A DNA stretch of 64,000 bases from Fusobacterium ulcerans ATCC 49185 (GTDB lineage: Bacteria > Fusobacteriota > Fusobacteriia > Fusobacteriales > Fusobacteriaceae): NCBI RefSeq assembly GCF_900683735.1, contig NZ_LR215979.1, positions 3,224,001-3,288,000 on the forward strand, read 5' to 3'. Of the stretch, positions 6,237 through 19,481 are shown one piece after another (the stretch's first letter is position 1; every line of letters starts with the position of its first letter). The notes beneath the pieces are model-generated. The model ran no database searches. It was not told the origin of the DNA and saw only the letters and a program-made list of their open reading frames with translations. Made by a program: the position numbers and the translations under genes.

Positions 6237-6875
6237 TTAATTTTGATAATTAACCATTCCTTCTGCTATCATCAAAGCACAAACTATTCCATCCAATACC
6301 TTCACTTTAACTATTTTTTCTATAGTTTTATCTATTCCTGCAAATCCAGCACAGCCTAGTACCAAAATTTCTGCCTTATCTTCTTCTATTGCTTTTTTAG
6401 CTGCAAAGATTAATTTTTCTTCCAAAGTAGAATTTTCCAGCCCTTCATCTGGAGTCCTTACAGACTTCAAATATTTCTTTAAGCCATATTTAGCTACCAA
6501 TTCCTTTTTCAAATGAGTAGTTTTATTACTAGAACCTATTACAGAAAAATTTTTTCCTAAAAGTGAAGCTATTTTCATAGAAGCTTCACCAATTCCAATG
6601 ACTAATTTATTGGATACTTCCTTGGCTGCATCTAGATTAGGATCAAGATGGCAAGCTATTATAAAGGCATCATATTTATCTTGATTTTTTTTTATACATT
6701 CTATCAATCCCTTTCCTACCATTGCAATATCTTCATAACTTCCTACAAAGGCAGGAGAATCTTCCAAAGAAATGCTCTCCAGTATAAATCTATCCTTTAC
6801 AAAATTTCTAGCGCTTTCATCTATTGCCTTGGTCATTTTTACATCACTATTGGGATTTATTATAAGTACTTTCAT
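6237..6875 (-). CDS. Asp/Glu/hydantoin racemase family protein
   Basis: A 212-aa cytoplasmic enzyme of the aspartate/glutamate/hydantoin racemase family (PF01177). The two catalytic-cysteine regions are ACHLDPNLDAAKEV, equivalent to the first Cys loop, and VLGCAGFAGI, the second Cys loop. The N-terminus MKVLIINPNS is typical of hydantoin and allantoin racemases (HyuE/HpxA). It overlaps the upstream amidohydrolase by 4 bp (ATGA), so translation is coupled. In an operon with a cyclic amidase and an N-carbamoyl-type hydrolase, racemisation of a hydantoin or of allantoin is the best guess. The operon does not distinguish the two. Confidence 0.85.
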   Translation of the reverse strand: MKVLIINPNSDVKMTKAIDESARNFVKDRFILESISLEDSPAFVGSYEDIAMVGKGLIECIKKNQDKYDAFIIACHLDPNLDAAKEVSNKLVIGIGEASMKIASLLGKNFSVIGSSNKTTHLKKELVAKYGLKKYLKSVRTPDEGLENSTLEEKLIFAAKKAIEEDKAEILVLGCAGFAGIDKTIEKIVKVKVLDGIVCALMIAEGMVNYQN

Positions 6876-8092
6876 AGAATCACCTCTCCTAAAATCTCTT
6901 CTTTATCCAATTCTAAAACTGTGTCCAACAATATCTGTGTTCCTTTGGCTATTTGTTTCTCTGTCGAATATTCCAATGGTGAATGACTTATTCCCCCAAC
7001 ACTGGGTATAAATATCATTCCTGTAGGAACCTTATAGGTGAATTCTTTTGCATCATGTCCTGCACCACTTGACATTTCAACTCCTCTATAATTATTTTTT
7101 TCCGTTACTATTTTTATTTTTTCTATGATATTTTTATCCAATAATCTAGAAGGTTTATTAATTGTTTCTTGAAAATCAAACTTAAAGTTATAAAATTGTT
7201 GAGAATATTCTTTTAATTTTAATATAAAATCATCTATATTTTTTTGTTCCAAATCTCTTAATTCCAATAGTAAAGTGACTTCTCTAGGGATTACATTATA
7301 CATACCAGGTTTTACTTCCAAATCTCCAATTGTAACTACAAAAGGATGTTTATATTCCAAAGTCAAATCATTAATTTTCCCTATAACTTTTCCCAATACT
7401 TTTATTGGGTCCTTTCTTAAGTTCATTGGAGTAGTTCCTGCATGATTGGATTCTCCCTTTATGGTTATCTTATATCTTGTAATTCCTACTATTCCATCTA
7501 CTATTCCAATATCATATTTGTTTTCTTCTAAAAATCCTCCTTGCTCAATATGTAATTCCAAAAACACACCTACTTTGTTCATATTTTTAGTTGAATTTTT
7601 AATATTTTCTAAGTTTAAGCCATAATGAGACAACTTTTCTTCTAAATCTTTTTCTTTGAGATTTTGTCTACCAGTCATTACACGACTTCCAAAGGTTCCT
7701 CCCATTTCACTACCTTCTTCTGCATTAAAAGCAACTATCTCTATAGGATGTTTCATAGATATATTATTTTCATTCAGGCATTTTACAACTTCCAAAGCTG
7801 CTATTATACCTAAATTACCATCATATAGCCCTCCATTTTTTACTGTATCCAAATGAGAACCTATCATTATAGATTTTTTATTAACATCTTTCCCCTCTCT
7901 TCTTCCCAAAATATTACCAACTTCATCTTTGATTACTTTTAAATTACTTTCTAAAAATAATCTTTCCAAAATATTCAAAGCTTGATAATATTCTTGACTA
8001 AAACCTTCTCTTGTAATTCCATCTTTTTCCTTATAACCAATATCTCCAGTTTTATGTAAATTTTCCATTAATCTTTTTATATTAATTTTCAT
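6872..8092 (-). CDS. M20 hydrolase: N-carbamoyl-L-amino-acid hydrolase / allantoate amidohydrolase type
   Basis: A 406-aa zinc or manganese enzyme of the HyuC/AllC group. Diagnostic motifs are GSHLDTVKNGGLYDG (first metal ligands), FNAEEGSEMGGTFGSR (catalytic Glu), HIEQG, and a late SGAGHDAKEF with the last metal histidine. Family members open the carbamoyl or ureido product formed by hydantoinases or allantoinase. It lies between the symporter (11 bp upstream) and the racemase (4-bp overlap). The ribosome site is AGGTGAT. The substrate, N-carbamoyl amino acid or allantoate, is undecided. Confidence 0.88.
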   Translation of the reverse strand: MKINIKRLMENLHKTGDIGYKEKDGITREGFSQEYYQALNILERLFLESNLKVIKDEVGNILGRREGKDVNKKSIMIGSHLDTVKNGGLYDGNLGIIAALEVVKCLNENNISMKHPIEIVAFNAEEGSEMGGTFGSRVMTGRQNLKEKDLEEKLSHYGLNLENIKNSTKNMNKVGVFLELHIEQGGFLEENKYDIGIVDGIVGITRYKITIKGESNHAGTTPMNLRKDPIKVLGKVIGKINDLTLEYKHPFVVTIGDLEVKPGMYNVIPREVTLLLELRDLEQKNIDDFILKLKEYSQQFYNFKFDFQETINKPSRLLDKNIIEKIKIVTEKNNYRGVEMSSGAGHDAKEFTYKVPTGMIFIPSVGGISHSPLEYSTEKQIAKGTQILLDTVLELDKEEILGEVIL

Positions 8093-8103
8093 TTTATCAC
8101 CTT

Positions 8104-9516
8104 TTATTTAAAGAATCTTTCCATTACTCGCTCTGGAGGTGGTGGAGTCATATAACTTACTAATAAATTTGCTATACTTGATGTCAAGATGGCTGGTAAT
8201 ATAGGCATCCAACCAAAGGGATTTCCCAATATATACCAAATTATAGCTGTTGCCACTCCTACTATCATTCCTGCTAATCCTCCTTGAGAATTAGATCTCT
8301 TGGAAGTAAACCCAATGATTATTGTCATTGCCAGCATAGAACCTAGTATTCCAACCATATTTGCCTGTATCATCAAAACAGTAGAAGAATTATAAAGGGC
8401 AGATACTATGGTTATTACCCCAACTACCAAGGTAGTTACCTTAGATATTTTCAATATTTTATTTGAAGAAGCATCTTTATTTATAAATTTTTGATAAATA
8501 TCCCTTGTGGCTACAGTCCCAGCTTGCAACAATACTGAAGATGCTGTGGAAATTGCAGCCCCTAAGATAGCAGCCAATACCAAGCCTCCAACCACTGGAT
8601 TCACCATTTTTACCATAGCAGTACTTGCTACCAAATCAATATTCTCTATATTTGGCATTAAAATCCTCATTCCTAGACCGATCAGCATTAAAGGTAAGTA
8701 AAATAATATAAATAATATTCCTGATACTCCTTGACTCATTCTAGCTACACTGGCATCCTTACAAGCATTAAATCTTGTTATCAATTGTGGTAACCCAAAG
8801 TTCCCTATTCCCCAAGTGATACACCATGATATTGCTAATCCTACACTTATTTTCCCTCCTGCAAAAGGGTCCAAAAGTGTCTTATCCATATTATATAATG
8901 ATACATGAAGATTAACAATTCCTCCAGTGGCCTTTAATATAGAAAAAAGTAAAGAATATGTTCCAAATAATATAAGAACAGTGGTCAGAACACTTGTCCA
9001 AGCAACAGAAACCATTCCCCCCATGATAGTATACAATATAAATACACAACCTACTATTATTGCTGACCATTGAGTAGAAATTCCTGTTATAGTCTTTATA
9101 ATTGATGCTGATGCAATCAATTGAGTCATTGTAAATACCACTGTGGAGAATAATATCAATACTGCTGCTAATCCACCATGTACTTTACCATACCTTTCAT
9201 CTAAAAAATCTGATATTGTCACTCCACCAAATTTTCTTAATTTAGCTGCAAAACTTGCTGCCAAAAGCACAGTAAATATCAATGTACCTGCCCAATTCCA
9301 CCAGCCACCCCAGCCAAACTTATAATAATATCCCATATAACCAATAAAAGATACTGCACTCAATACTGTTGTAAAATATGCTGCTGCACTGGGTATCACC
9401 CCCAAAGTCCTGCCAGCTACAGACCAATCTTCACTATTTTTTATAGATTTTGAAGCTCGATAACCAATGAAAACCAACAAAGCAAGGTAAGTTATTAAAA
9501 TTCCTATATATATCAT
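8104..9516 (-). CDS. Sodium:solute symporter (SSS family)
   Basis: A 470-aa inner-membrane transporter with about 13 hydrophobic segments. The N-terminus lacks a cleavable signal, and the helix with SVAGRTLGVIPSAAAYF is typical of SSS proteins. Other family signs are GQ/NFGLPQLITRF and AGTVATRDIYQKF, the cytoplasmic loop seen in PutP/PanF-like carriers. It lies in the hydantoin/allantoin-type operon and so probably imports the cyclic ureide. The start follows GGAGGTAAAG. The small membrane peptide encoded just upstream (9534-9653) may be its partner. Confidence 0.88.
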   Translation of the reverse strand: MIYIGILITYLALLVFIGYRASKSIKNSEDWSVAGRTLGVIPSAAAYFTTVLSAVSFIGYMGYYYKFGWGGWWNWAGTLIFTVLLAASFAAKLRKFGGVTISDFLDERYGKVHGGLAAVLILFSTVVFTMTQLIASASIIKTITGISTQWSAIIVGCVFILYTIMGGMVSVAWTSVLTTVLILFGTYSLLFSILKATGGIVNLHVSLYNMDKTLLDPFAGGKISVGLAISWCITWGIGNFGLPQLITRFNACKDASVARMSQGVSGILFILFYLPLMLIGLGMRILMPNIENIDLVASTAMVKMVNPVVGGLVLAAILGAAISTASSVLLQAGTVATRDIYQKFINKDASSNKILKISKVTTLVVGVITIVSALYNSSTVLMIQANMVGILGSMLAMTIIIGFTSKRSNSQGGLAGMIVGVATAIIWYILGNPFGWMPILPAILTSSIANLLVSYMTPPPPERVMERFFK

Positions 9517-9533
9517 CTTTACCTCCTTAAAAA

Positions 9534-9653
9534 TTATTTTTTATTATCTTTATCCGTTTTATCTGTTACTATTGCTGCTATCAATGGTAAAAAACTCAAT
9601 ACTAAAAAGAATAACCAAAATAATTTTAATGAATTAGGTATAATATTGCCCAT
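9534..9653 (-). CDS. 39-aa single-helix membrane peptide next to the symporter
   Basis: A short gene with an excellent ribosome site (GGAGGTAATT then ATG at 9653) and a stop at 9534, 17 bp before the symporter start. The product has a polar N-terminus (MGNIIPNSLK), one ~20-residue hydrophobic helix (from LFWLFFLVLS to AAIV) and a charged tail (TDKTDKDNKK). Small single- or double-helix proteins are commonly encoded beside SSS and NSS carriers as accessory subunits; I do not recognise this one as any named family. Position and ribosome site argue for a real gene; function as a symporter partner is inference. Confidence 0.7.
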   Translation of the reverse strand: MGNIIPNSLKLFWLFFLVLSFLPLIAAIVTDKTDKDNKK

Positions 9654-9777
9654 AATTACCTCCTTTTTCTAAGCTTTATTTAGAATATTATCTTTGTAGC
9701 AATGATTTATTTGTTCTCTAAAGCTTCCATTATTTACAAAATAACATAACTCCTAACCTAACAAAGCTATTTTCAAA

Positions 9778-11166
9778 TTATTTATTATAAGTTTCTATTA
9801 ATTTCCCCCAACCTTTAGCCTTTTCATCAACAACACCATCTTTCATTACTACCTTTCCTCTGACAATGGTATAAATGGGAGTTCCTTTCAATTGTTTACC
9901 TTCAAAAACTCTAGAAATTTCTTTTGCCTTTGAGTAATTTTTACTTTTATCCACAGTAATAGTTTTGTCCATATCTACTATTACAAAATCTGCATCTGAT
10001 CCAACATTTATTACTCCTTTTTGTGGAAATATTTTGAAAGCCTTGGCTATATTAGTAGACAGTAAATCTATACATTTTTCAAAGGAAAGTTTCCCCTCAT
10101 TTACTGCATTGAGCATTAGAGGTAATCTCAAATCTACTCCTAAAAATCCTGATGGAGCTTTGAATATATCATCCCTTCCCTTTTCCTTTTCTTCCACAGT
10201 ATATGTAGCGTGATCACTGCCAATAAAATCCACTGTTCCATCAGTAACATATTTCCACAATCCATCTACATCTTCTTGTTTTCTCAAAGGTGGATTACAT
10301 TTTGCATAAACTCCATGCTTTATTACATCTTCCTCTGTCAAAAATAAATATTGTGGGCAAGTTTCCAAGTATAATTCCATTCCTTCACCTTTGGCTTTTT
10401 TGATCATTTCCATGGCCTCTGGAACTGTTGTATGACAGAAGATTAGCTTTACTCCAGTATCTTTTGCCAACAACAATAATTTAGATACAGTTTCAATTTC
10501 AGCAAATTTTGGTCTTGACAAACAATGATAAATAGGATCAGTTTTACCCTCTGCCCTAAATTTAGCTATCATACTGGTAATTATATCGTTATTTTCTGAA
10601 TGGACTGCACATAATTTACCAGTTTTAGCAACAGCTCTAAACCCATGATACATTTCCCCATCATTGGCCATTGTTAACCCTATAAATTCTGTATCTCTTC
10701 CCTCTGGAGCTTCATGTAAAAAAGTTTTAAAAGCTACTATTCCTGTTTCTCCCATTTCTTTTATTTTATCAGGAAATTTTGCTCCTGCTGCCCCATAAAA
10801 AGCAAAGTCCACCACACATTTATCGCTGGCATCTTCTATTCTTTTATCTAAAATTTCTTTAGAATATTGAGGTGGGTTAGCTATAGGATGCTCTAAAATA
10901 GTGGTAACTCCCCCTGCTGCTGCTGCCATGGTTTCAGTAAAAAAAGTTCCTCTATCTGGTCTTCCAGGTTCCCTTATGTGCATATGAGATTCTATCATTC
11001 CTGGCAACAAGTATTTTCCAGCTGCATCTATAGTTTTTTCAGCTTGAATCCCCTCAATATTATCAGTTATTTCTGAGATCTTTCCAGCCTTTACCAAAAC
11101 ATTTCCACAACAAAAGGTACCATTTAAATAAATTTTTGCATTTTTAATCAACAAATCAAATTTCAT
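9778..11166 (-). CDS. Cyclic amidohydrolase (allantoinase / dihydropyrimidinase-like)
   Basis: A 462-aa metal-dependent enzyme of the amidohydrolase superfamily (dihydroorotase/allantoinase/hydantoinase branch). The metal site HMHIREPG is at ~61-68; the glycine loop AAAAGGVTT follows; GIVAFKTFLHE carries the Lys expected to be carboxylated; HSEN, CHTT and FIGSDHATYT supply the remaining His and Asp ligands. It opens a cyclic ureide ring (hydantoin, allantoin or dihydropyrimidine). It is first in an operon with a small membrane peptide, a Na+ symporter, a carbamoyl-type hydrolase and a racemase, and is divergent from a LysR gene. Precise substrate undecided; allantoin and 5-substituted hydantoins are the main options. 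Confidence 0.88.
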   Translation of the reverse strand: MKFDLLIKNAKIYLNGTFCCGNVLVKAGKISEITDNIEGIQAEKTIDAAGKYLLPGMIESHMHIREPGRPDRGTFFTETMAAAAGGVTTILEHPIANPPQYSKEILDKRIEDASDKCVVDFAFYGAAGAKFPDKIKEMGETGIVAFKTFLHEAPEGRDTEFIGLTMANDGEMYHGFRAVAKTGKLCAVHSENNDIITSMIAKFRAEGKTDPIYHCLSRPKFAEIETVSKLLLLAKDTGVKLIFCHTTVPEAMEMIKKAKGEGMELYLETCPQYLFLTEEDVIKHGVYAKCNPPLRKQEDVDGLWKYVTDGTVDFIGSDHATYTVEEKEKGRDDIFKAPSGFLGVDLRLPLMLNAVNEGKLSFEKCIDLLSTNIAKAFKIFPQKGVINVGSDADFVIVDMDKTITVDKSKNYSKAKEISRVFEGKQLKGTPIYTIVRGKVVMKDGVVDEKAKGWGKLIETYNK

Positions 11167-11332: not shown

Positions 11333-12229
11333 ATGAATAATTTAGAAATAGAAGCATTTACTATGATTATAGAAACTGGAAGTCTTTCCATGGCAGCTAA
11401 TAAACTATTTGTATCTCAATCTACCATTACCAATAGACTAATTGCACTAGAAAATGAAATAGGAGAACCCCTTATCTTAAGAAAAAAAGGGCTCAAGAAA
11501 ATAGAGCTCACACACAAAGGTATTGAATTTATAGAGTTTGCCAATAGATATATTTCTGTTCTGAAAGATATTGATCTATGGAAAAATAATCTTTCTCCCA
11601 ATATCATTAAAATATCTATGCCCCATAGTATTAATTCATACCTTTTGAAAGAATTTATAAAAGATTATTCTTGTCAACATAACACTAAATTTTCTATAAG
11701 TTCCCATTGGAATCACATCATATATAATATGCTAGATAGCCACCAATTGGATCTAGGTCTTGTTTCTAGACCATTTGCATCAAAAAACTTAATTACAAAA
11801 TATTTATTTTCTGAATCTATGGTATTAATCTATGATAAGCGATTTTCTGATTTTAATGAAAAAACTACCTTAAATGATTTAAAATTAGAAAATGAAATAT
11901 TTCTAGACTGGGGACCTGATTTTGATCTATGGCACAATGAAAATTTTCCCAGTATCATTTTTCCAAAAATTAAAGTGGACTCTGCAAATCTCATAGAGTT
12001 TTTTCTCCAATCAAATAATGCTTGGTCCATTGTACCAAAATGTGTAGCTTATGAATTAAGAGATTTATCTCAAAATAATATTTCCATTTTAAATTTAGAA
12101 CATTTACCTACAAGGAAAATTTTTTTAGTAAGACAGCTTAATTCCATTTCATTAAGTAAAAAAGTTATGGAGAATTTCATTGAAAAACTTACTAATTTTC
12201 TCCAAAAATCTCCCTATATTATTTTTTAA
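11333..12229 (+). CDS. LysR-family transcriptional regulator
   Basis: A 298-aa regulator. The N-terminal winged helix-turn-helix reads GSLSMAANKLFVSQSTITNR in residues ~17-36, the LysR hallmark; residues ~90-295 form the periplasmic-binding-protein-like effector domain. The ribosome site is AGAGGTGAT. It is divergent from the cyclic amidohydrolase operon (167-bp gap) and so is its likely activator, with the ureide substrate or product as effector. The effector is inference. Confidence 0.88.
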   Translation: MNNLEIEAFTMIIETGSLSMAANKLFVSQSTITNRLIALENEIGEPLILRKKGLKKIELTHKGIEFIEFANRYISVLKDIDLWKNNLSPNIIKISMPHSINSYLLKEFIKDYSCQHNTKFSISSHWNHIIYNMLDSHQLDLGLVSRPFASKNLITKYLFSESMVLIYDKRFSDFNEKTTLNDLKLENEIFLDWGPDFDLWHNENFPSIIFPKIKVDSANLIEFFLQSNNAWSIVPKCVAYELRDLSQNNISILNLEHLPTRKIFLVRQLNSISLSKKVMENFIEKLTNFLQKSPYIIF

Positions 12230-12380: not shown

Positions 12381-12791
12381 ATGAATGATATGAGTCTAGA
12401 TATAATAAAAGATGATATTGCCAAAATGTCTGTAAATGCCATTATCAATGCTGCCAATTCATCTCCTTTGGATGGATGTGAGATATGTAACATTCATTAC
12501 AAAAGTGACCTTATTATTCTCAATGAATATAAGAAAGCTGTAATTACCACTGCTGGTCTACTTGATCCCAAATATGTGCTCCATATTGTGGAAGTTGTTT
12601 TGAATGGAGAAGAGCTTTCAACCAATTGTTATATTAATTCCTTTCAATTGGCTGTAGAAAATAATTGTAAATCTATAACTTTTCCTTTTATTTCTTTTGA
12701 ATCCTATAGATATCTCAGAGATAAAGCTCTATAAGCAGTTTTATTTGATGATGGAACTTTTAATCTTGGTAAAAATATAACGAAAATTTAA
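12381..12791 (+). pseudogene. Degenerate macro-domain protein
   Basis: The frame from 12381 encodes ITKM-like IAKMSVNAIINAANSS, then skips the usual glycine-rich GGGGVDGAIH loop, resumes with AVITTAGLLDPKYVLHIVEV and CYINSFQLAVENNCKSITFPFIS, and stops at 12732-12734. Reading through that stop in frame gives another 18 codons to a stop at 12789-12791. The order and spacing match macro (ADP-ribose-binding) proteins, but both ligand-binding loops are lost or altered and the C-terminal helix is cut. It is probably a decaying gene; a short but functional variant is less likely. Confidence 0.65.
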
Positions 12792-12883
12792 AACCTAAAA
12801 ATTAAGAAGATAAGGATTTAAGGTTTACTAAAAATAAAATTTTTATTTCTTAGATTTAAATTTTTATATTTATTTTCAAAATA

Positions 12884-12919
12884 TAAAAGAGCTATCACAA
12901 ATTTGTAATAGCTCTTTTA
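12884..12919. terminator. Terminator of the PTS/dipeptidase operon
   Basis: The 12-bp stem TAAAAGAGCTAT / ATAGCTCTTTTA has a second small palindrome in the loop and U-rich tails in both directions. It lies 9 bp past the stop of the minus-strand dipeptidase and also faces the macro-domain remnant. Confidence 0.85.
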
Positions 12920-12927
12920 TTTATTAA

Positions 12928-14325
12928 TTATTTAATCAATACTCCAAGCTTCAATATAGCCCTTGCATATATTTCCATTCCCTGTTTCAACATATCAAGA
13001 TCCATACATTCATCAAAGCTATGAGGTTTACCATTATATTCTTTAAAATTAGGACCAAATGCTACTGTATTAGGCATTAGTTTCGCATATGTTCCCCCAC
13101 CTAATGCAGCAGGTTCCTCATTTCTTCCTGTCACACTTGTATATACATCTTGTAGTTCTTTTACTAGAGGATGAGCCTTCTCAAAATAAAGAGGTGCATT
13201 ATGATTTTCTTTAAAGAATACAACTCCTCCTTTTTCTCCTGCTATTTTCAAACTTGAATCAAGAGTTTTCTCATCTATAGAAGCAGGATATCTTATATTA
13301 AATTTTACAAATATCTCATCATCTTTAATATTTGTTATCCCTGCACTTATTGTCAGATTTCCTACTTCTTCATTGACAGTTTTTATACCCAGTTTCTCTC
13401 CATCTGAACTTTCACCAATATAACCTGAAATAAATGATATAAATCCTTTTGCTGCATCTTCTTTCCCAATAATCAGATCAAGGAATCTATACATTCCTAA
13501 AAGTGCATTCACTCCCTTATGAGGTGAACTTGCATGAGCTGATATTCCAGTACAGATTATTTCTGCTGTATCTTCTTCATAACTTACTGTATATCCTGCT
13601 TTAGTTGATATTTTTATTTCACTGAGAACTTTCTTTATATTCTCTTTAGGTATATTTCTCACTTTAGCTATACATTTTTCAGGTACTATATTTGATCTTG
13701 TTCCTGCTTTTATCTCTATCAGTTTTGAATTTTTCCAGTCTATCTTTTTTCTAAATGAAAATGTATATATCCCCTTTTCAGAAAATATTACTGGAAATCT
13801 TCCATCTGGAGTAAAAGCATATTTTGGTTCTTTTTCTCTTGCCAGATAATATTTGATATCTTCATCTCCGCTCTCTTCATTAGTTCCAAATATTACCCTC
13901 ACTCTTTTATTAAATTCTGGATGTGTATCCACTACAGCTTTCAGAGAATACAGAGCTGATATGATAGGAGCTTTATTGTCAATAGCTCCTCTTGCTATAA
14001 GCTGATTATTTACTATACACCCTTCATAAGGGGGTACACTCCAGCTAGCTTCATCCCCTTCGGGCACTACATCTATATGCCCTAAAATAGCTATATATTC
14101 TTCTCCCTCTCCATACTCAGCATATCCAATATAATTATCTAGATTTTTCACTTTAAATCCAAGGCTTTGAGCTATTTCCAGTACTTTGTTCAAACCTCTT
14201 TTAAGCTCTGCTCCATAAGGAGCATCCCCTATTTTCTCTGCTTTTACAGTTTTTATTCTTATAATTTCAAGGATACTTTTTAAAGCATCATCAAAATGTA
14301 TATCGATATATTTTTTTATATCCAT
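12928..14325 (-). CDS. pepV: M20 dipeptidase, PepV/Sapep type
   Basis: A 465-aa cytoplasmic metallopeptidase that cleaves dipeptides. Motifs are ILGHIDVVPEGD (first zinc ligand), RGAIDNKAP (bridging Asp), NEESGDEDI (catalytic Glu), the large insert lid domain, and AALGGGTYAK with PHSFDE at the C-terminus (last His ligand), all in the order and spacing of PepV. It is last in an operon with a complete lactose/cellobiose-type PTS and a glycosylasparaginase, 20 bp after IIB. Its job may be to split an amino-acid or dipeptide product of the imported glycoconjugate. Confidence 0.87.
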   Translation of the reverse strand: MDIKKYIDIHFDDALKSILEIIRIKTVKAEKIGDAPYGAELKRGLNKVLEIAQSLGFKVKNLDNYIGYAEYGEGEEYIAILGHIDVVPEGDEASWSVPPYEGCIVNNQLIARGAIDNKAPIISALYSLKAVVDTHPEFNKRVRVIFGTNEESGDEDIKYYLAREKEPKYAFTPDGRFPVIFSEKGIYTFSFRKKIDWKNSKLIEIKAGTRSNIVPEKCIAKVRNIPKENIKKVLSEIKISTKAGYTVSYEEDTAEIICTGISAHASSPHKGVNALLGMYRFLDLIIGKEDAAKGFISFISGYIGESSDGEKLGIKTVNEEVGNLTISAGITNIKDDEIFVKFNIRYPASIDEKTLDSSLKIAGEKGGVVFFKENHNAPLYFEKAHPLVKELQDVYTSVTGRNEEPAALGGGTYAKLMPNTVAFGPNFKEYNGKPHSFDECMDLDMLKQGMEIYARAILKLGVLIK

Positions 14326-14345
14326 AGTTTTCTCCTGTGGTGCAA

Positions 14346-14651
14346 TTAGTCAATTAAAGAAAGAGCAAGTTCTAAAACTTTATCTCCTTTCATCATACCA
14401 TAATCCATAGTATTGATGATTTCTACTTTTTTCCCAACAGTTTCTGCTACTGCTGCTAGTTCGGCTTTTTTATATTTTACTTGTGGTCCTAATAGAAATA
14501 CATCATAGTTATTAAGGTTTTCTTGAAATTTTGCTATACTTAAAGCATTTATTTCAGTTTCTATTCCTTTTTTTACAGCAGCTTCCTTCATTTTTTTAAC
14601 CATAAGACTTGTTGACATTCCTGCATCACATAATAATAATATTTTCTTCAT
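14346..14651 (-). CDS. PTS lactose/cellobiose-family IIB component
   Basis: A 101-aa soluble phosphocarrier. The phospho-accepting cysteine is Cys8 in MKKILLLCDAGMSTSL, the P-loop signature of IIB-cellobiose. It takes phosphate from IIA (16976-17296) and passes it to the sugar bound by IIC (14687-16000). It lies between the IIC and dipeptidase genes. Length and motifs are normal. Confidence 0.92.
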   Translation of the reverse strand: MKKILLLCDAGMSTSLMVKKMKEAAVKKGIETEINALSIAKFQENLNNYDVFLLGPQVKYKKAELAAVAETVGKKVEIINTMDYGMMKGDKVLELALSLID

Positions 14652-14686
14652 AGTTTTCCTCCTAATTATTTATTTTAAATTTCTAA

Positions 14687-16000
14687 TTATTTTCCTTCAT
14701 TTTCCATTTGCTCTAATCTTTCCATTTCATCTTCCTCTTTTTTACTAGCCTTGTCTATTATTCTAAGGAATGGAAGATAAATCATTGCTCCAATGATAAG
14801 ATTTACTATTTGAATAAGAGATCCAGTAATATCTCCTACTGTTAAAAATCCACTGATTATTGCTGGTGTAGGCCAAGGAAAAGCTACTCCCAAAGGTTTT
14901 GATACAATTCCAAGATTCATTGTTATATACTGTGTAGTTACCATTACCATAGCAACTAAATTAAATGGTATGAGCATAATAGGGTTAAGGATTATTGGAA
15001 GTCCAAATAGAATTGGCTCATTTATATTAAATATTCCTGGAATAGTTCCAATAGCTCCAACACTTCTTATATGTTTACTTTTTGCAAAGATTAATATAGC
15101 TATAAGAAGAGAAAGAGTAACTCCTGCTCCTCCCATCCATACCATATCAAAAAACTGCTCTGTTATTACATGAGGAAGAGGCTGTCCAGCTTGCAGTGCT
15201 GCTATATTTTCTACTTGATTTTCCAACCAGAAAGGTCTTACAAATCCATTTACCATTGAACCACTGTTTATTCCAACAGACCAAAGAATTGATATAGCAA
15301 AAACTGTAAATATAGAACCTATATATGAAGTTCCAAGAGATTTTAATGGTAAAGCCAACATTCTATATACAAAGTCATGTATTGTTCCATAATCTGTCTG
15401 CATCATAAGAAGTCTTAAAATAAGAGCTGCTCCAAGGATAACTGTTCCAGGAATAAGAGCTTCAAATGATTTTATAACTTCAGGTGGTACACCATCAGGC
15501 ATTTTTACAAGAATATTTCTATTAACGAAAAATTGAAATATTTTTACTGTTAATACTCCAATAACCATAGCCACAAACATCCCTTTACTTCCAAGCCAGT
15601 CAAATGTAATAACTGCTCCATGTTCAGTGGAATATCCCAATGGAGTAAGTATTAAGAATGAAGCTAAAGACAGAAGCCCTACTGCAATGCTGTCCAGCTC
15701 AAATTGTTTAGCAAGCTGTTGAGCTACTAAGAAAGCTACATATAGAGCTATAAGTGAAAATGTAGCACTTACAGGGATATCAAGAACATCCTTCCATCCT
15801 TCACCAAATAAACTAGTCATACCTCTTTGATATGCTGGTAATGGGAAAGCTGAAATCATCAAAAATATAGATCCAATCATTAAAAGAGGCATCATCATTA
15901 TAAATGCTCTTCTTATTCCATTGATATATTTGTTCTGTGCTATCCATGCAGCTACAGGAACAAGTTTGTCTTCCAGTATAGTTATAACTTTACTCATCAT
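14687..16000 (-). CDS. PTS lactose/cellobiose-family IIC permease
   Basis: A 437-aa inner-membrane sugar channel with about ten hydrophobic helices. Family signs are GIFNINEPILFGLPIILNP (sugar-binding loop, residues ~320-340) and the N-terminal YINGIRRAFIMMMPL. Two adjacent ATG codons (16000 and 15997) compete; the second has the better distance from GGAG. It is flanked by glycosylasparaginase and IIB, which suggests that the sugar is part of a glycosyl-amino acid rather than a plain disaccharide. Confidence 0.92.
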   Translation of the reverse strand: MMSKVITILEDKLVPVAAWIAQNKYINGIRRAFIMMMPLLMIGSIFLMISAFPLPAYQRGMTSLFGEGWKDVLDIPVSATFSLIALYVAFLVAQQLAKQFELDSIAVGLLSLASFLILTPLGYSTEHGAVITFDWLGSKGMFVAMVIGVLTVKIFQFFVNRNILVKMPDGVPPEVIKSFEALIPGTVILGAALILRLLMMQTDYGTIHDFVYRMLALPLKSLGTSYIGSIFTVFAISILWSVGINSGSMVNGFVRPFWLENQVENIAALQAGQPLPHVITEQFFDMVWMGGAGVTLSLLIAILIFAKSKHIRSVGAIGTIPGIFNINEPILFGLPIILNPIMLIPFNLVAMVMVTTQYITMNLGIVSKPLGVAFPWPTPAIISGFLTVGDITGSLIQIVNLIIGAMIYLPFLRIIDKASKKEEDEMERLEQMENEGK

Positions 16001-16010
16001 CGTCTCCTTT

Positions 16011-16976
16011 TTATATTTCTTCTAATGGTTTTTGTATGTTTTTTTTGTAAGCTTCCATGTATTCTTTTGAAGCTATTTCAATTTTTACTTCATTGTTTCC
16101 TTCTATAGGATATGCAAGATATACTTTAGGTTCATTATCTGGATCAGCTGCAACAAATGAAAACTCTACATTAGTTCCAATTCCCCATTCACCTTTATTA
16201 TTCATTGCTATAACTGATATAGCCCCTGCATGACCTCTTCTTTTTTTCAATTGATCAGAAAAGTCTGCAACTGCTGATTGAGCTGCTTCTGTAGGGGACA
16301 TCCCTCTTTTCATTCTTTGAACTGTTTCATAAGAAAGACATCCTTTCATTATATCTTCTCCAAGTCCAGTAGCTGCTGCTCCACCAGCTTCATTATCCAC
16401 ATAGAATCCTGAACCAGATACAGGTGAATCTCCTACTCTACCTCTTTTTTTCATAAACAGCCCACTTGTAGAAGTAGCCGCTGCCATATCTTTCTCTGAA
16501 TCTATACTTATCATACATACTGTATCATGTCCATCATAAGGGGAAAGATTTTTTTCAGTTATCTCTTTCATTCTTAATTCCCAAGTTTTTTTCGCTCTTT
16601 CAGTAAGCATATTCTGTCTTATGAAACCATTCTTATGAGCATAAGCCTCTGCTCCCTCTCCAACAAGGAATATATTGAATCTGTCTGCACTGAGTTTTCT
16701 TGCTATACACACAGGATTTTTATAGTCTTTTATTCCAGCTACTGCTCCAATAGAAAGTGTCTTTCCATCCATAAAAGCAGCATCCAGTTCAACTTCACAT
16801 ACTTCATTTGGAAGTCCTCCATACCCTACTGATTTATAGAATGGATAATCTTCAACTTCCATTATTGCTCTTTCTACAGCATCTTGACATTTTCCACCAT
16901 TTTTTAATATATCAGCTCCCAGAGTAACCCCTTCAACAGCCATTCTCCACGTAGCAATCATAGCCCATTTTTTCAT
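16011..16976 (-). CDS. Glycosylasparaginase-type Ntn hydrolase
   Basis: A 321-aa member of the asparaginase-2 family. The autoprocessing site HDTVCMISID puts the nucleophile at Thr152; downstream are the substrate motifs GRVGDSPVSGSG and GGAAATGLGEDI, which favour N4-(beta-N-acetylglucosaminyl)-L-asparaginase over plain L-asparaginase. No signal peptide, so it acts in the cytoplasm, unlike periplasmic or lysosomal relatives. Its start overlaps the stop of IIA by one base (TAATG), coupling translation. Inside a PTS operon it probably releases aspartate from an imported, possibly phosphorylated glycosyl-asparagine. The substrate is inference. Confidence 0.85.
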   Translation of the reverse strand: MKKWAMIATWRMAVEGVTLGADILKNGGKCQDAVERAIMEVEDYPFYKSVGYGGLPNEVCEVELDAAFMDGKTLSIGAVAGIKDYKNPVCIARKLSADRFNIFLVGEGAEAYAHKNGFIRQNMLTERAKKTWELRMKEITEKNLSPYDGHDTVCMISIDSEKDMAAATSTSGLFMKKRGRVGDSPVSGSGFYVDNEAGGAAATGLGEDIMKGCLSYETVQRMKRGMSPTEAAQSAVADFSDQLKKRRGHAGAISVIAMNNKGEWGIGTNVEFSFVAADPDNEPKVYLAYPIEGNNEVKIEIASKEYMEAYKKNIQKPLEEI

Positions 16977-17296
16977 TATTTTTCCACTCCTATTCTTCTA
17001 TATACATCTATCAGTTCTTCAACTAATTCTCTAGCAAGGATCGAGTTCATAAGGTGGTCTTGAGCATGAACCATAAGAAGATTCATAGCTATTCCATTCC
17101 CATCTGCTTCATTACATATAAGTTCTGTCTGCATCCCATGAGCTACAAGAGATTTTTCTCTTGATTCTTTTAAAAGTTCCTCTGCTTTATCAAAATTTCC
17201 AGTTTTTGCTTCTCTTAATGCTTCATAAGCTAAACTTCTTGCTTCACCAGCGTTACCTACTATTGTCATTGCCACTTCTTCTAAATCTAAATCCAT
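16976..17296 (-). CDS. PTS lactose/cellobiose-family IIA component
   Basis: A ~106-aa trimeric helical phosphocarrier. The motif LLMVHAQDHLMNS contains the active histidine (His77 from the start chosen here) of the LacF/CelC family. Two ATGs are possible (17302 and 17296); the upstream one is only two bases from AGGAGG, so I choose 17296. It is first in the operon IIA - glycosylasparaginase - IIC - IIB - dipeptidase. Its stop overlaps the next start. Confidence 0.92.
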   Translation of the reverse strand: MDLDLEEVAMTIVGNAGEARSLAYEALREAKTGNFDKAEELLKESREKSLVAHGMQTELICNEADGNGIAMNLLMVHAQDHLMNSILARELVEELIDVYRRIGVEK

Positions 17297-17331
17297 GTTC
17301 ATTACCTCCTTGATATTTTTGATTTTTTTAA

Positions 17332-17389
17332 GGTCATACTTATATTAGCACTAGTCAAATAAAATGTCAAAAATCACATTTTTATGACC
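17332..17389 (-). promoter_or_regulatory. Promoter of the PTS operon, flanked by inverted GGTCATA sites
   Basis: On the minus strand there is a -35 TTGACA (17370-17365), a 17-bp spacer and a -10 TAATAT (17347-17342). The half-sites GGTCATA (17332-17338) and TATGACC (17383-17389) flank the promoter as an inverted pair ~50 bp apart, a layout that would suit a looping or dimeric regulator. Nearer the divergent gene, an imperfect repeat ACGAAAATAA / TTATTTCGT lies at 17468-17494. Confidence 0.7.
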
Positions 17390-17552
17390 GTATATCGTTT
17401 TTAAAGTTCCAATTTAATTATTATTCTTGAAATAAAATATAGTATATGGTATGATTTAGTAGGTATAACGAAAATAAAATATTCTTATTTCGTTTAACTT
17501 TAAGAAAAAAAATATTCAAAAATATAAAAAAATTTTTAGGAAGGAGCTTTTT

Positions 17553-18653
17553 ATGAATTTTGATATACTTCAAAAAGATATCCAGATAGAATTTTCCAAA
17601 TATCTCAACAGAAAAGAAAGAACTCTTATCAAGTCTTTAACTATAAAAGATAAAAATGTAACTCTTCCTTTTAAAGAATTTTTAAAGTATCTAGATTTTG
17701 AAACTCAGGAAGAGGGAATAAAATTTCTTAATTCATTTATGAATAAATATATTATCCTTTCCTCAACTAATTCTAAATATCTTGCATATTTAAATATACT
17801 TCAATCTTTTTATATATCTGGTGATGATATAACACTGATATTCCCAGATGAAATAGCCAGTTCTTTTAAAAAAGGAACTAACTATGAAAAACTTGGAATC
17901 AATAGAATGCTTACATTCAGAGAAAAATTTTCATATCGTCTATATCAATATGTGAAAAGAGCTACTGAAAACAGTGTATATATTCCTATGGAAACTTTAA
18001 GAAATCTTCTTGAAATCAAAGAATCATATAAAAGATATTATGATATTGAAAAAAACCTGCTTATGCCAGTATTGAAAGATCTTGAAGATAATGGGCATCT
18101 TCCCCTTTTATATACTAAGAATAAAAATGGAGATTATAAAAGTGCAAAAATACTAGGAATCACTCTTGAAAAACAGATAGTAGAAAATAGTAATACCATT
18201 ATAATAAATGATATTATGACGAAAATAGGAAAAGAGGTTAAAAATTTTACTGAAATATACTCTATTGTATTAAAAGCTTTAGCAGAACATGGGGAAGAAT
18301 ATGTTAGAAACAACACAGATTATGCTTTAAAGAATTTCACTGGAAATTTTGATATCTATCTGGAGCAACTCCTGCTTAAGAATACTCCTGTAGAAAAAGC
18401 ATTTCTTACAGTTAAAAAGAAATTTAAAACTCTTTTTGAACTCCATATGGAAGTATTAAAGATAGCACAAAAAGAAAGCCATTATCCATCAAATTTAAAA
18501 TTTCTTATTAAAATTTATTCTTTAAAAGATGGTGAATCAACTGTTTGTGATGGAAAAGATATCTCAATGAAGATAACATATAACAAAAATGATTTTTCAT
18601 ATATAGAAGTGTTCAGACAAAAGATGAATGAAGATGATATAAAAATAGATTAA
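17553..18653 (+). CDS. Rep_3-type (RepB-like) replication initiator homologue
   Basis: A 366-aa protein resembling plasmid Rep_3 initiators. The second winged-helix region is clearest: FREKFSYRLYQYVKR (residues ~128-142), then LRNLLEIKESYKRYYDIEKN and VLKDLEDNG. The first ~120 residues look like the N-terminal winged helix; the C-terminal ~150 residues are helical and of unknown role. Nothing else here looks plasmid-like (no iteron array, partition or mobilization gene). It is divergent from the PTS operon, so it may be a chromosomal relic or a protein reused as regulator. The start has AAGGAG. Confidence 0.7.
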   Translation: MNFDILQKDIQIEFSKYLNRKERTLIKSLTIKDKNVTLPFKEFLKYLDFETQEEGIKFLNSFMNKYIILSSTNSKYLAYLNILQSFYISGDDITLIFPDEIASSFKKGTNYEKLGINRMLTFREKFSYRLYQYVKRATENSVYIPMETLRNLLEIKESYKRYYDIEKNLLMPVLKDLEDNGHLPLLYTKNKNGDYKSAKILGITLEKQIVENSNTIIINDIMTKIGKEVKNFTEIYSIVLKALAEHGEEYVRNNTDYALKNFTGNFDIYLEQLLLKNTPVEKAFLTVKKKFKTLFELHMEVLKIAQKESHYPSNLKFLIKIYSLKDGESTVCDGKDISMKITYNKNDFSYIEVFRQKMNEDDIKID

Positions 18654-18919
18654 CCTAACAGGAAGTTCTCCCTCTTCTTTACAATAAAAAACAGAAAGAA
18701 AATTTCCTAGTAAAACTATATTTCCTTATGAATCTAAGCTATATAATTGGAATTCTATAACTAAGACTATTAAAATTATCTTTTTTACTATATTCCATAT
18801 TTATTTTCCATATTATATTTTATCATTTACTTTATTTTTATAATGTAAATTTATACACTATAATTTTATCTGTAACAAAACATATTATTCTTCTCAAATA
18901 TTAATATATATAATTTATC

Positions 18920-18948
18920 TTGACAATATCCGATTTCGGATTTATAAT
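18920..18948 (+). promoter_or_regulatory. Consensus promoter with an operator palindrome in its spacer
   Basis: A perfect -35 TTGACA (18920-18925), a 17-bp spacer and a perfect -10 TATAAT (18943-18948), 38 bp upstream of the MarR gene. The spacer holds the palindrome ATCCGA-TT-TCGGAT (18928-18941), ideally placed for a repressor, most simply the MarR protein itself. Confidence 0.85.
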
Positions 18949-18986
18949 AAAATTAAAATTCCACATTAAACTTTGGAGGAACAGCT

Positions 18987-19481
18987 ATGTTGAAAATAGT
19001 CAAAGAACAAAATTTAGAATTAAATCGTATTTGGAGAATGCAAGACCAATTGTATCAAACTTATGCTACTCATTGTCATTTATCTTCAGTATCTTTTTGG
19101 ATATTATACACCTTGAATGAAGCAAATGAAGTCTATACACAAAATATTCTTGCTGAAATGTGGTATTTTCCAAGGCAAACAGTTAATTCAGCAATCATGA
19201 ATCTTGTAAAAATTGGATATATAAAACTTGAGCAAATACAAGGGGCAAGAAATAGTAAAGCTGTAATATTAACAGAGCAAGGGTTAAATATATGTAAAAA
19301 TATTGTTACCCCATTAGTTAATGCAGAACTACGTGCATTATTAAAAATGTCTGAAGAAGAACGTCAAATGTTCCTTGAGCTTTCCAATAAACAACAGCGT
19401 TTGTTACAAGCAGAACTTAATATGATTTATCAAAATGAAATAATAAATTTTGATTTAATAAATAAGGAGATACAGAAATGA
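18987..19481 (+). CDS. MarR-family transcriptional regulator
   Basis: A 164-aa winged-helix regulator. The DNA-binding part is residues ~55-105 (NILAEMWYFPRQTVNSAIMNLVKIGYIKLEQ..., with the wing QGARNSKAVILTEQG). The start follows GGAGGAACAGCT. It heads a cassette with a Cys-rich KTR peptide (4-bp overlap), a kinase-like protein, a MATE exporter and an acetyltransferase, so it probably represses an efflux or resistance function. The consensus promoter upstream has a palindrome in its spacer, consistent with autorepression. The effector is unknown. Confidence 0.88.
   Translation: MLKIVKEQNLELNRIWRMQDQLYQTYATHCHLSSVSFWILYTLNEANEVYTQNILAEMWYFPRQTVNSAIMNLVKIGYIKLEQIQGARNSKAVILTEQGLNICKNIVTPLVNAELRALLKMSEEERQMFLELSNKQQRLLQAELNMIYQNEIINFDLINKEIQK

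Follow-up and report, generated by a model that had tools for sequence, protein, structure and literature searches.

What does a phosphotransferase system (PTS) import when its genes share an operon with a cytoplasmic glycosylasparaginase (GA), and what controls such an operon? The question is raised by a minus-strand operon of Fusobacterium ulcerans ATCC 49185 with the gene order IIA-GA-IIC-IIB-PepV-type dipeptidase, which lies in a 64 kb stretch of contig NZ_LR215979.1 (positions 3,224,001 to 3,288,000). This whole stretch is the DNA that was analyzed and is called the window; its own numbering is used throughout. We consider it likely that N-acetylglucosamine-asparagine (GlcNAc-Asn), or a compound of that type, is imported by the PTS and cleaved by the GA, and that a divergent RepE-like gene serves as local regulator. 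The features of the operon are the following.

16976..17296, minus strand: PTS IIA of the lactose/cellobiose family (PF02255, E 4.5e-35; ribosome-binding sequence spacing)
16011..16976, minus strand: cytoplasmic GA with Thr152 as nucleophile (PF01112, E 2e-64; PDB match)
14687..16000, minus strand: PTS IIC of the lactose/cellobiose family (PF02378, E 9e-59; TIGR00410 above cut-off)
14346..14651, minus strand: PTS IIB of the lactose/cellobiose family (PF02302, E 1e-23)
12928..14325, minus strand: M20 dipeptidase of the PepV type (NF005591 PepV equivalog, 446 bits against a cut-off of 435)
17342..17370, minus strand: operon promoter, TTGACA (17370-17365), 17 nt, TAATAT (17347-17342) (sequence; scan 10/12)
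12880..12922, minus strand: likely terminator, a stem-loop with a T-rich tail 3' of the operon (sequence; RNAfold -21.6 kcal/mol)

The open reading frames (ORFs), the Pfam matches and base 16976, which is common to the IIA stop and the GA start, bear out the original prediction that a full IIA-IIC-IIB set, a GA and a dipeptidase form one operon with a 1-base overlap. The other gaps between genes are 10, 35 and 20 nt (GA/IIC, IIC/IIB and IIB/dipeptidase). An alternative IIA start is found at 17302, and the AGGAGG at 17310-17305 suits the 17296 start better. The stem-loop at 12880-12922 was missing from the output of a consensus terminator scan. A Pfam search of the cluster proteins found no glycosidase in the gene cluster, as had been claimed. 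The assignment of the second gene as a GA with a Thr152 nucleophile also stands: the closest solved structures are those of the Elizabethkingia GA (E 2e-53), Elizabethkingia being presumably the source of these PDB entries, while entries for isoaspartyl peptidase/L-asparaginase match less well (E 2e-37 or weaker), and Thr152 aligns with the GA nucleophile. Residues W10, T152, R180, D183, T203 and G204 are unchanged in 53 of 53 PTS-linked GA relatives; we take W10, R180, D183, T203 and G204 to have roles in the enzyme, the substrate-binding Arg and Asp being among them. A predicted specificity of the GA type, and not of the isoaspartyl-peptidase type, is supported by these comparisons.

The substrate of the operon is most likely GlcNAc-Asn or a near relative, judging from its gene content. 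The lactose/cellobiose-type PTS would import GlcNAc-Asn (or a close glycosyl-asparagine, possibly a short peptide) with phosphorylation of the sugar, and the GA would cut the amide in the cytoplasm to give aspartate and a 1-amino-sugar phosphate. The latter would decompose, with loss of ammonia, to GlcNAc-6-P, which NagA and NagB (both encoded in the genome) would pass to glycolysis; the dipeptidase would trim Asn-X peptides. GlcNAc-Asn is the stub that remains after degradation of host N-glycoproteins; its scavenging has been reported in Enterococcus, and here the kit is found in a gut-type bacterium of another phylum.

The ega locus of E. faecalis is reported to comprise the glycosylasparaginase EgaG, lactose/cellobiose EIIB/EIIC and a dipeptidase (PMC11160706), and the title of Combret et al. 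2024 (Res Microbiol 175:104169; cited in PMC12502629) names the use of N-acetylglucosamine-L-asparagine. The uptake and cleavage of GlcNAc-Asn put forward in the original prediction are probably right, in view of the GA homology, the coupling to a PTS and the presence of NagA and NagB, while its suggestion of novelty for a PTS-based system does not hold; the operon is a Fusobacteriota version of the reported ega-type pathway, and the pathway itself is not new. Both loci bring together a glycosylasparaginase (with a Thr nucleophile in the window), EIIB and EIIC of the lactose/cellobiose family and a dipeptidase gene, which in the window adjoins; the window operon differs in its single run IIA-GA-IIC-IIB-PepV and in having neither a GntR regulator nor an oxidoreductase-like gene, with the RepE-like divergent neighbor instead. 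It may therefore work like ega, as a regulatory variant. The alf-2 cluster of L. casei combines a major facilitator superfamily (MFS) permease, the ROK kinase SugK, a fucosidase and a GA that yields aspartate and 1-amino-GlcNAc (PMC6960285). The cytoplasmic GA with PepV adjoining is shared with the window, which has a PTS in place of permease and kinase and no fucosidase. A literature search on Fusobacter with glycosylasparaginase returned nothing on point, subscription journals being mostly outside its reach, as they were for the further searches mentioned below.

Conservation of the cluster was assessed on two scales. The GA occurs in 20 of 61 related genomes, and members of the window's own family share the order IIA-GA-IIC-IIB, at 66-100% identity; since relatives retain this set of genes, the cluster is not a product of chance. 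In a more distant family (L146-L151) the order is DUF7916-IIB-IIC-GrdB-like-M42-M42-GA-PepV, so that a DUF7916 gene comes first in the GA operon. The neighborhood survey that the original prediction had proposed covered the best 80 of 580 confirmed GA relatives among genome contigs, with up to 8 kb fetched on each side; a GA ORF was called in 77 of these 80 loci, whose taxa include many Bacillota and one spirochaete metagenome-assembled genome. Close to the GA lay PepV in 67 loci, IIC or IIB in 56, MupG/GH170 in 14, a ROK-type kinase in five (in one of them, L049, about 6 kb from the GA) and GH4 in four. ROK and PTS genes were found together in none of the 80 loci, none of the five ROK loci having a PTS (Fisher p 0.0018, a significance that kinship among the loci inflates). 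This mutual exclusion fits a PTS that performs the phosphorylation done elsewhere by a kinase, with GlcNAc-Asn entering as the 6-phosphate, and it lends support to the earlier suggestion of cleavage after phosphorylation of the sugar, an order of events which we regard as probable. The labels BglG, GntR, ROK, LevR-type, CutC and SFCGS were given to clusters from sequence by the author; YitT, GRDB, RDD, MupG, GHL6, fucosidase, DUF7916, EIIA-man, amidohydrolase, solute-binding protein and two EIIC types were checked by Pfam on one member each, and SIS on two.

Some results weigh against the pathway as proposed. No GH18 enzyme was found in the genome, which would leave release of the stub to others. 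A search for a phosphate-pocket signature yielded no GA residue that sets PTS-linked apart from kinase-linked enzymes, which means that the sequence does not tell whether the enzyme acts on the 6-phosphate. In L. casei, pepV of the alf-2 cluster was reportedly not required (PMC6960285), and by analogy the dipeptidase may be dispensable here.

A reading in which the PTS takes up a common beta-glucoside or chitobiose-type sugar and the GA acts on isoaspartyl peptides or asparagine is unlikely. The IIC does come near the cellobiose equivalog, scoring 426.5 and thus just under the cut-off of 434.5, and the MupG/GH170 or GH4 genes of some relatives (14/80 and 4/80) make larger glycans possible there; however, the operon is without a phospho-glycosidase, PTS genes lie near the GA in 56 of the 80 loci, the enzyme is much nearer to glycosylasparaginase than to isoaspartyl peptidase/L-asparaginase (E 2e-53 against 2e-37 or weaker), and a function has been reported for ega. 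Fructose-asparagine or another Amadori compound appears highly improbable as the substrate. A sister RepE-like gene of the same genome lies beside genes for a mannose-type PTS and two SIS proteins, an arrangement that we take to be gfr-like, but a SIS deglycase is absent from the operon, and an Amadori linkage involves the alpha-amino group whereas GA cuts N4-glycosyl amides, which counts against such a substrate.

The original prediction made no mention of the gene divergent from the operon, to which we turn for the control of GlcNAc-Asn use. This gene and the sites in the intergenic region that it shares with the operon are as follows.

17553..18653, plus strand: RepE-like double winged-helix protein with an unmatched C-terminal region of ~150 aa, the proposed operon regulator (Rep3_C, E 6e-7; profile; synteny)
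17468..17493, no strand assigned: candidate operator, inverted repeat ACGA-N18-TCGT (12/12 close relatives including the window; 19/34 non-redundant regions)
17427..17455, plus strand: candidate promoter of the divergent regulator (consensus scan 10/12; weak alone, chance matches being common)
17395..17398, minus strand: ACGA half-site near the operon promoter, 28 nt upstream of its -35 (spacing class in 25/34 non-redundant intergenic regions)

We consider it quite likely that a RepE-type plasmid initiator gave rise to a large, phylum-wide family of local regulators at PTS and amino-sugar operons in Fusobacteriota, characterized by ACGA inverted repeats close to the regulator gene, an ACGA at about -64 or -54 of the operon promoter and a new C-terminal region that probably perceives the sugar. 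F-plasmid RepE is matched across both winged helices by a profile built from 29 relatives (E 4e-10); Rep3_C (the second winged helix, WH2) was matched in all 29, and WH1 by Pfam in just one. The protein thus resembles F-plasmid RepE and the Rep_3 initiators (PDB 1rep, 2z9o) in both winged-helix domains, and differs from them in being chromosomal, in lying beside sugar operons with no iteron array seen, and in its additional C-terminal ~150 aa, for which no match to anything was obtained and in which no PRD or effector domain was recognised. In Bacillota the equivalent role at such loci falls to GntR, BglG/LicR and LevR-type PTS regulators (labels from sequence), to which the window regulator is unrelated in both DNA-binding family and operator.

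The RepE-like gene is divergent from the GA operon in 18 of the 20 GA-bearing genomes (broken in one of the 18, G043); in the remaining two (G004 and G054) the contig apparently ends before the position of the gene. Two paralogs are present in the F. ulcerans genome and both are divergent from operons, one of them of the amidohydrolase/PRD/SFCGS type and the other the mannose-type PTS operon with two SIS proteins. An operon of the former type, amidohydrolase/PRD/SFCGS/DUF4312/DUF4311/DUF4310/selA-like (most of these gene labels being our assumption), lies at L106:7025-11751 divergent from a RepE-like gene; the type recurs at L155, L156 and L158 and partly at L171. Of 98 genomes from the phylum, 55 gave profile matches to the family, with up to 10 copies in each. 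The fetched loci contain 60 ORFs of the family, from which L128 and L154 (without upstream sequence) and two pieces of one broken gene (L150) were removed; two of the 56 assessable members (L137 and L163) had a same-strand upstream neighbor, and the other 54 are divergent from an operon. PTS genes are among the first six of that operon in 47 of the 54 cases, the seven others being five amidohydrolase-type operons, one solute-binding protein and one GH1 gene. The ORF set is without some of the match rows, for example G017:C92, G017:C125, G055:C5, C8, C17 and C36, G058:C1:443376, G020:C21 and G001:C1:255469. Among 34 genomes of GA-bearing organisms outside the phylum there were four matches, all partial and covering approximately the winged-helix portion only, one being interrupted by many stops; within the genomes sampled, the full-length family is found only in Fusobacteriota. 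RepE-like relatives were not found among viral contigs. A search for RepE-like PTS regulators found nothing on point, and the family is undescribed as far as the literature searched shows.

The shared sites were analyzed in a non-redundant set of 34 intergenic regions whose regulators are <60% identical. An unbiased scan for inverted 4-mers gave ACGA-N18-20-TCGT as the top signal, present in 19 of the 34 regions against 0.02 in 60 shuffles; random windows from the same loci contained the inverted repeat in five of 680 cases, a rate at which a whole genome would contain roughly a hundred copies by chance. On the operon strand, ACGA was found 26-29 nt before TTGAC/TTGAT in 21 regions against 0.26 in 200 shuffles (maximum 3), and in four more regions it stood at 18 nt before the -35, approximately one helical turn nearer; the opposite strand showed no such spacing peak. 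With spacers of 17-21 allowed, both sites were present in 13 regions, the promoter site only in 12, the inverted repeat only in six and neither in three. In the window and 11 relatives, ACGA-N-TCGT and the ACGA upstream of the promoter are kept while the remaining intergenic sequence drifts. Control regions behaved differently: neither motif occurred in any of 15 divergent intergenic regions without a RepE-like gene, the promoter site occurred in none of 70 same-strand intergenic regions, and nine further PTS IIC loci from this genome all lacked the sites, with the window's own locus scoring as expected. A further inverted repeat at the window promoter, GGTCATA/TATGACC, had been spotted by eye and was dropped, being conserved only in the nearest relatives.

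The RepE-like gene is a conserved divergent neighbor with shared operator-like sites, as would be expected of a local regulator. Its product most likely binds the ACGA half-sites between the two divergent transcription units. RepE, as a dimer, shuts off its own gene by way of an inverted repeat, and the ACGA-N18-TCGT at 17468-17493 is situated directly downstream of the candidate regulator promoter (17427-17455), a suitable place for autorepression; from this repeat the regulator would repress its own gene. The ACGA at 17398-17395, near -64 of the operon promoter, would offer a place for an activator that touches RNA polymerase, the two positions of about -64 and -54 being in helical register with that promoter; the regulator would probably activate the operon from this site when sugar is present, and its C-terminal region may sense either the sugar or the state of the PTS. 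Against this proposal it must be said that the inverted repeat is absent from 15 of the 34 regions and both motifs from three, and that a single-sequence AlphaFold model of the regulator reached a mean pLDDT (predicted local distance difference test) of only 35 and was not used.

As a member of the Rep_3 family, genes of which are annotated as replication initiation proteins, the RepE-like gene could be a relic or a live initiator of an integrated plasmid, its linkage to the operon being merely inherited synteny. This is very unlikely, since paralogs are likewise divergent from many sugar operons of unrelated kinds and the sites keep a fixed spacing from the operon -35 on the operon strand only. 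No direct-repeat family that would indicate iterons was found in 17290-17560 or 18600-19000, and the tandem repeats near the gene are all short and AT-rich, with 2.2 to 2.8 copies, and form no clear iteron array. Even the Cetobacterium copy carried by an annotated plasmid, itself labeled "replication initiation protein", is divergent from a mannose-type PTS operon. Alternatively, the ACGA sites could belong to another regulator of the same promoter class while the RepE-like protein acts otherwise, and the absence of the promoter-proximal site from nine of the 34 regions would agree with this; we hold it to be improbable because the sites track RepE-like genes and are lacking at the nine other PTS IIC loci and in the control intergenic regions. 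If the family is indeed one of local regulators, as it seems to be for many sugar operons, annotation as "replication initiation protein" is misleading, the operators can be read directly from sequence, and the family plainly illustrates how an initiator fold has passed from replication into gene control.

Several observations were made on the GA loci and their neighbors. A CutC-type gene lies near the GA in 45 of the 80 loci, often directly 3' of PepV, and its role may lie in amino-sugar metabolism, not copper; a search on CutC with glycosylasparaginase found nothing on point in the literature, and the single CutC of the window genome (PF03932) is located elsewhere (L108 and L202:4037-4645). 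A short stand-alone protein that corresponds to the first half only of glycine-reductase selenoprotein B (PF07355) likewise accompanies the GA in 45 of 80 loci (e.g., L029:7423-7944 and L146:6128-6649). The MupG/GH170 phospho-glycosidase genes lie beside GA-PTS operons, as at L040:11629-12822, hinting at import of GlcNAc2-Asn by these loci. In the close relative G001 (L014, L022) the GA gene is in two frames, which indicates either a broken gene or a sequencing error. Within the window itself, amidase-type, sodium-solute symporter and allantoinase/dihydropyrimidinase-like genes at 6872-11166, adjoined by a LysR gene (11333-12229), likely form a purine or hydantoin operon, and 12381-12734 encodes a macro-domain protein of 117 aa which is shorter than the matched ADP-ribose hydrolase models and possibly truncated.

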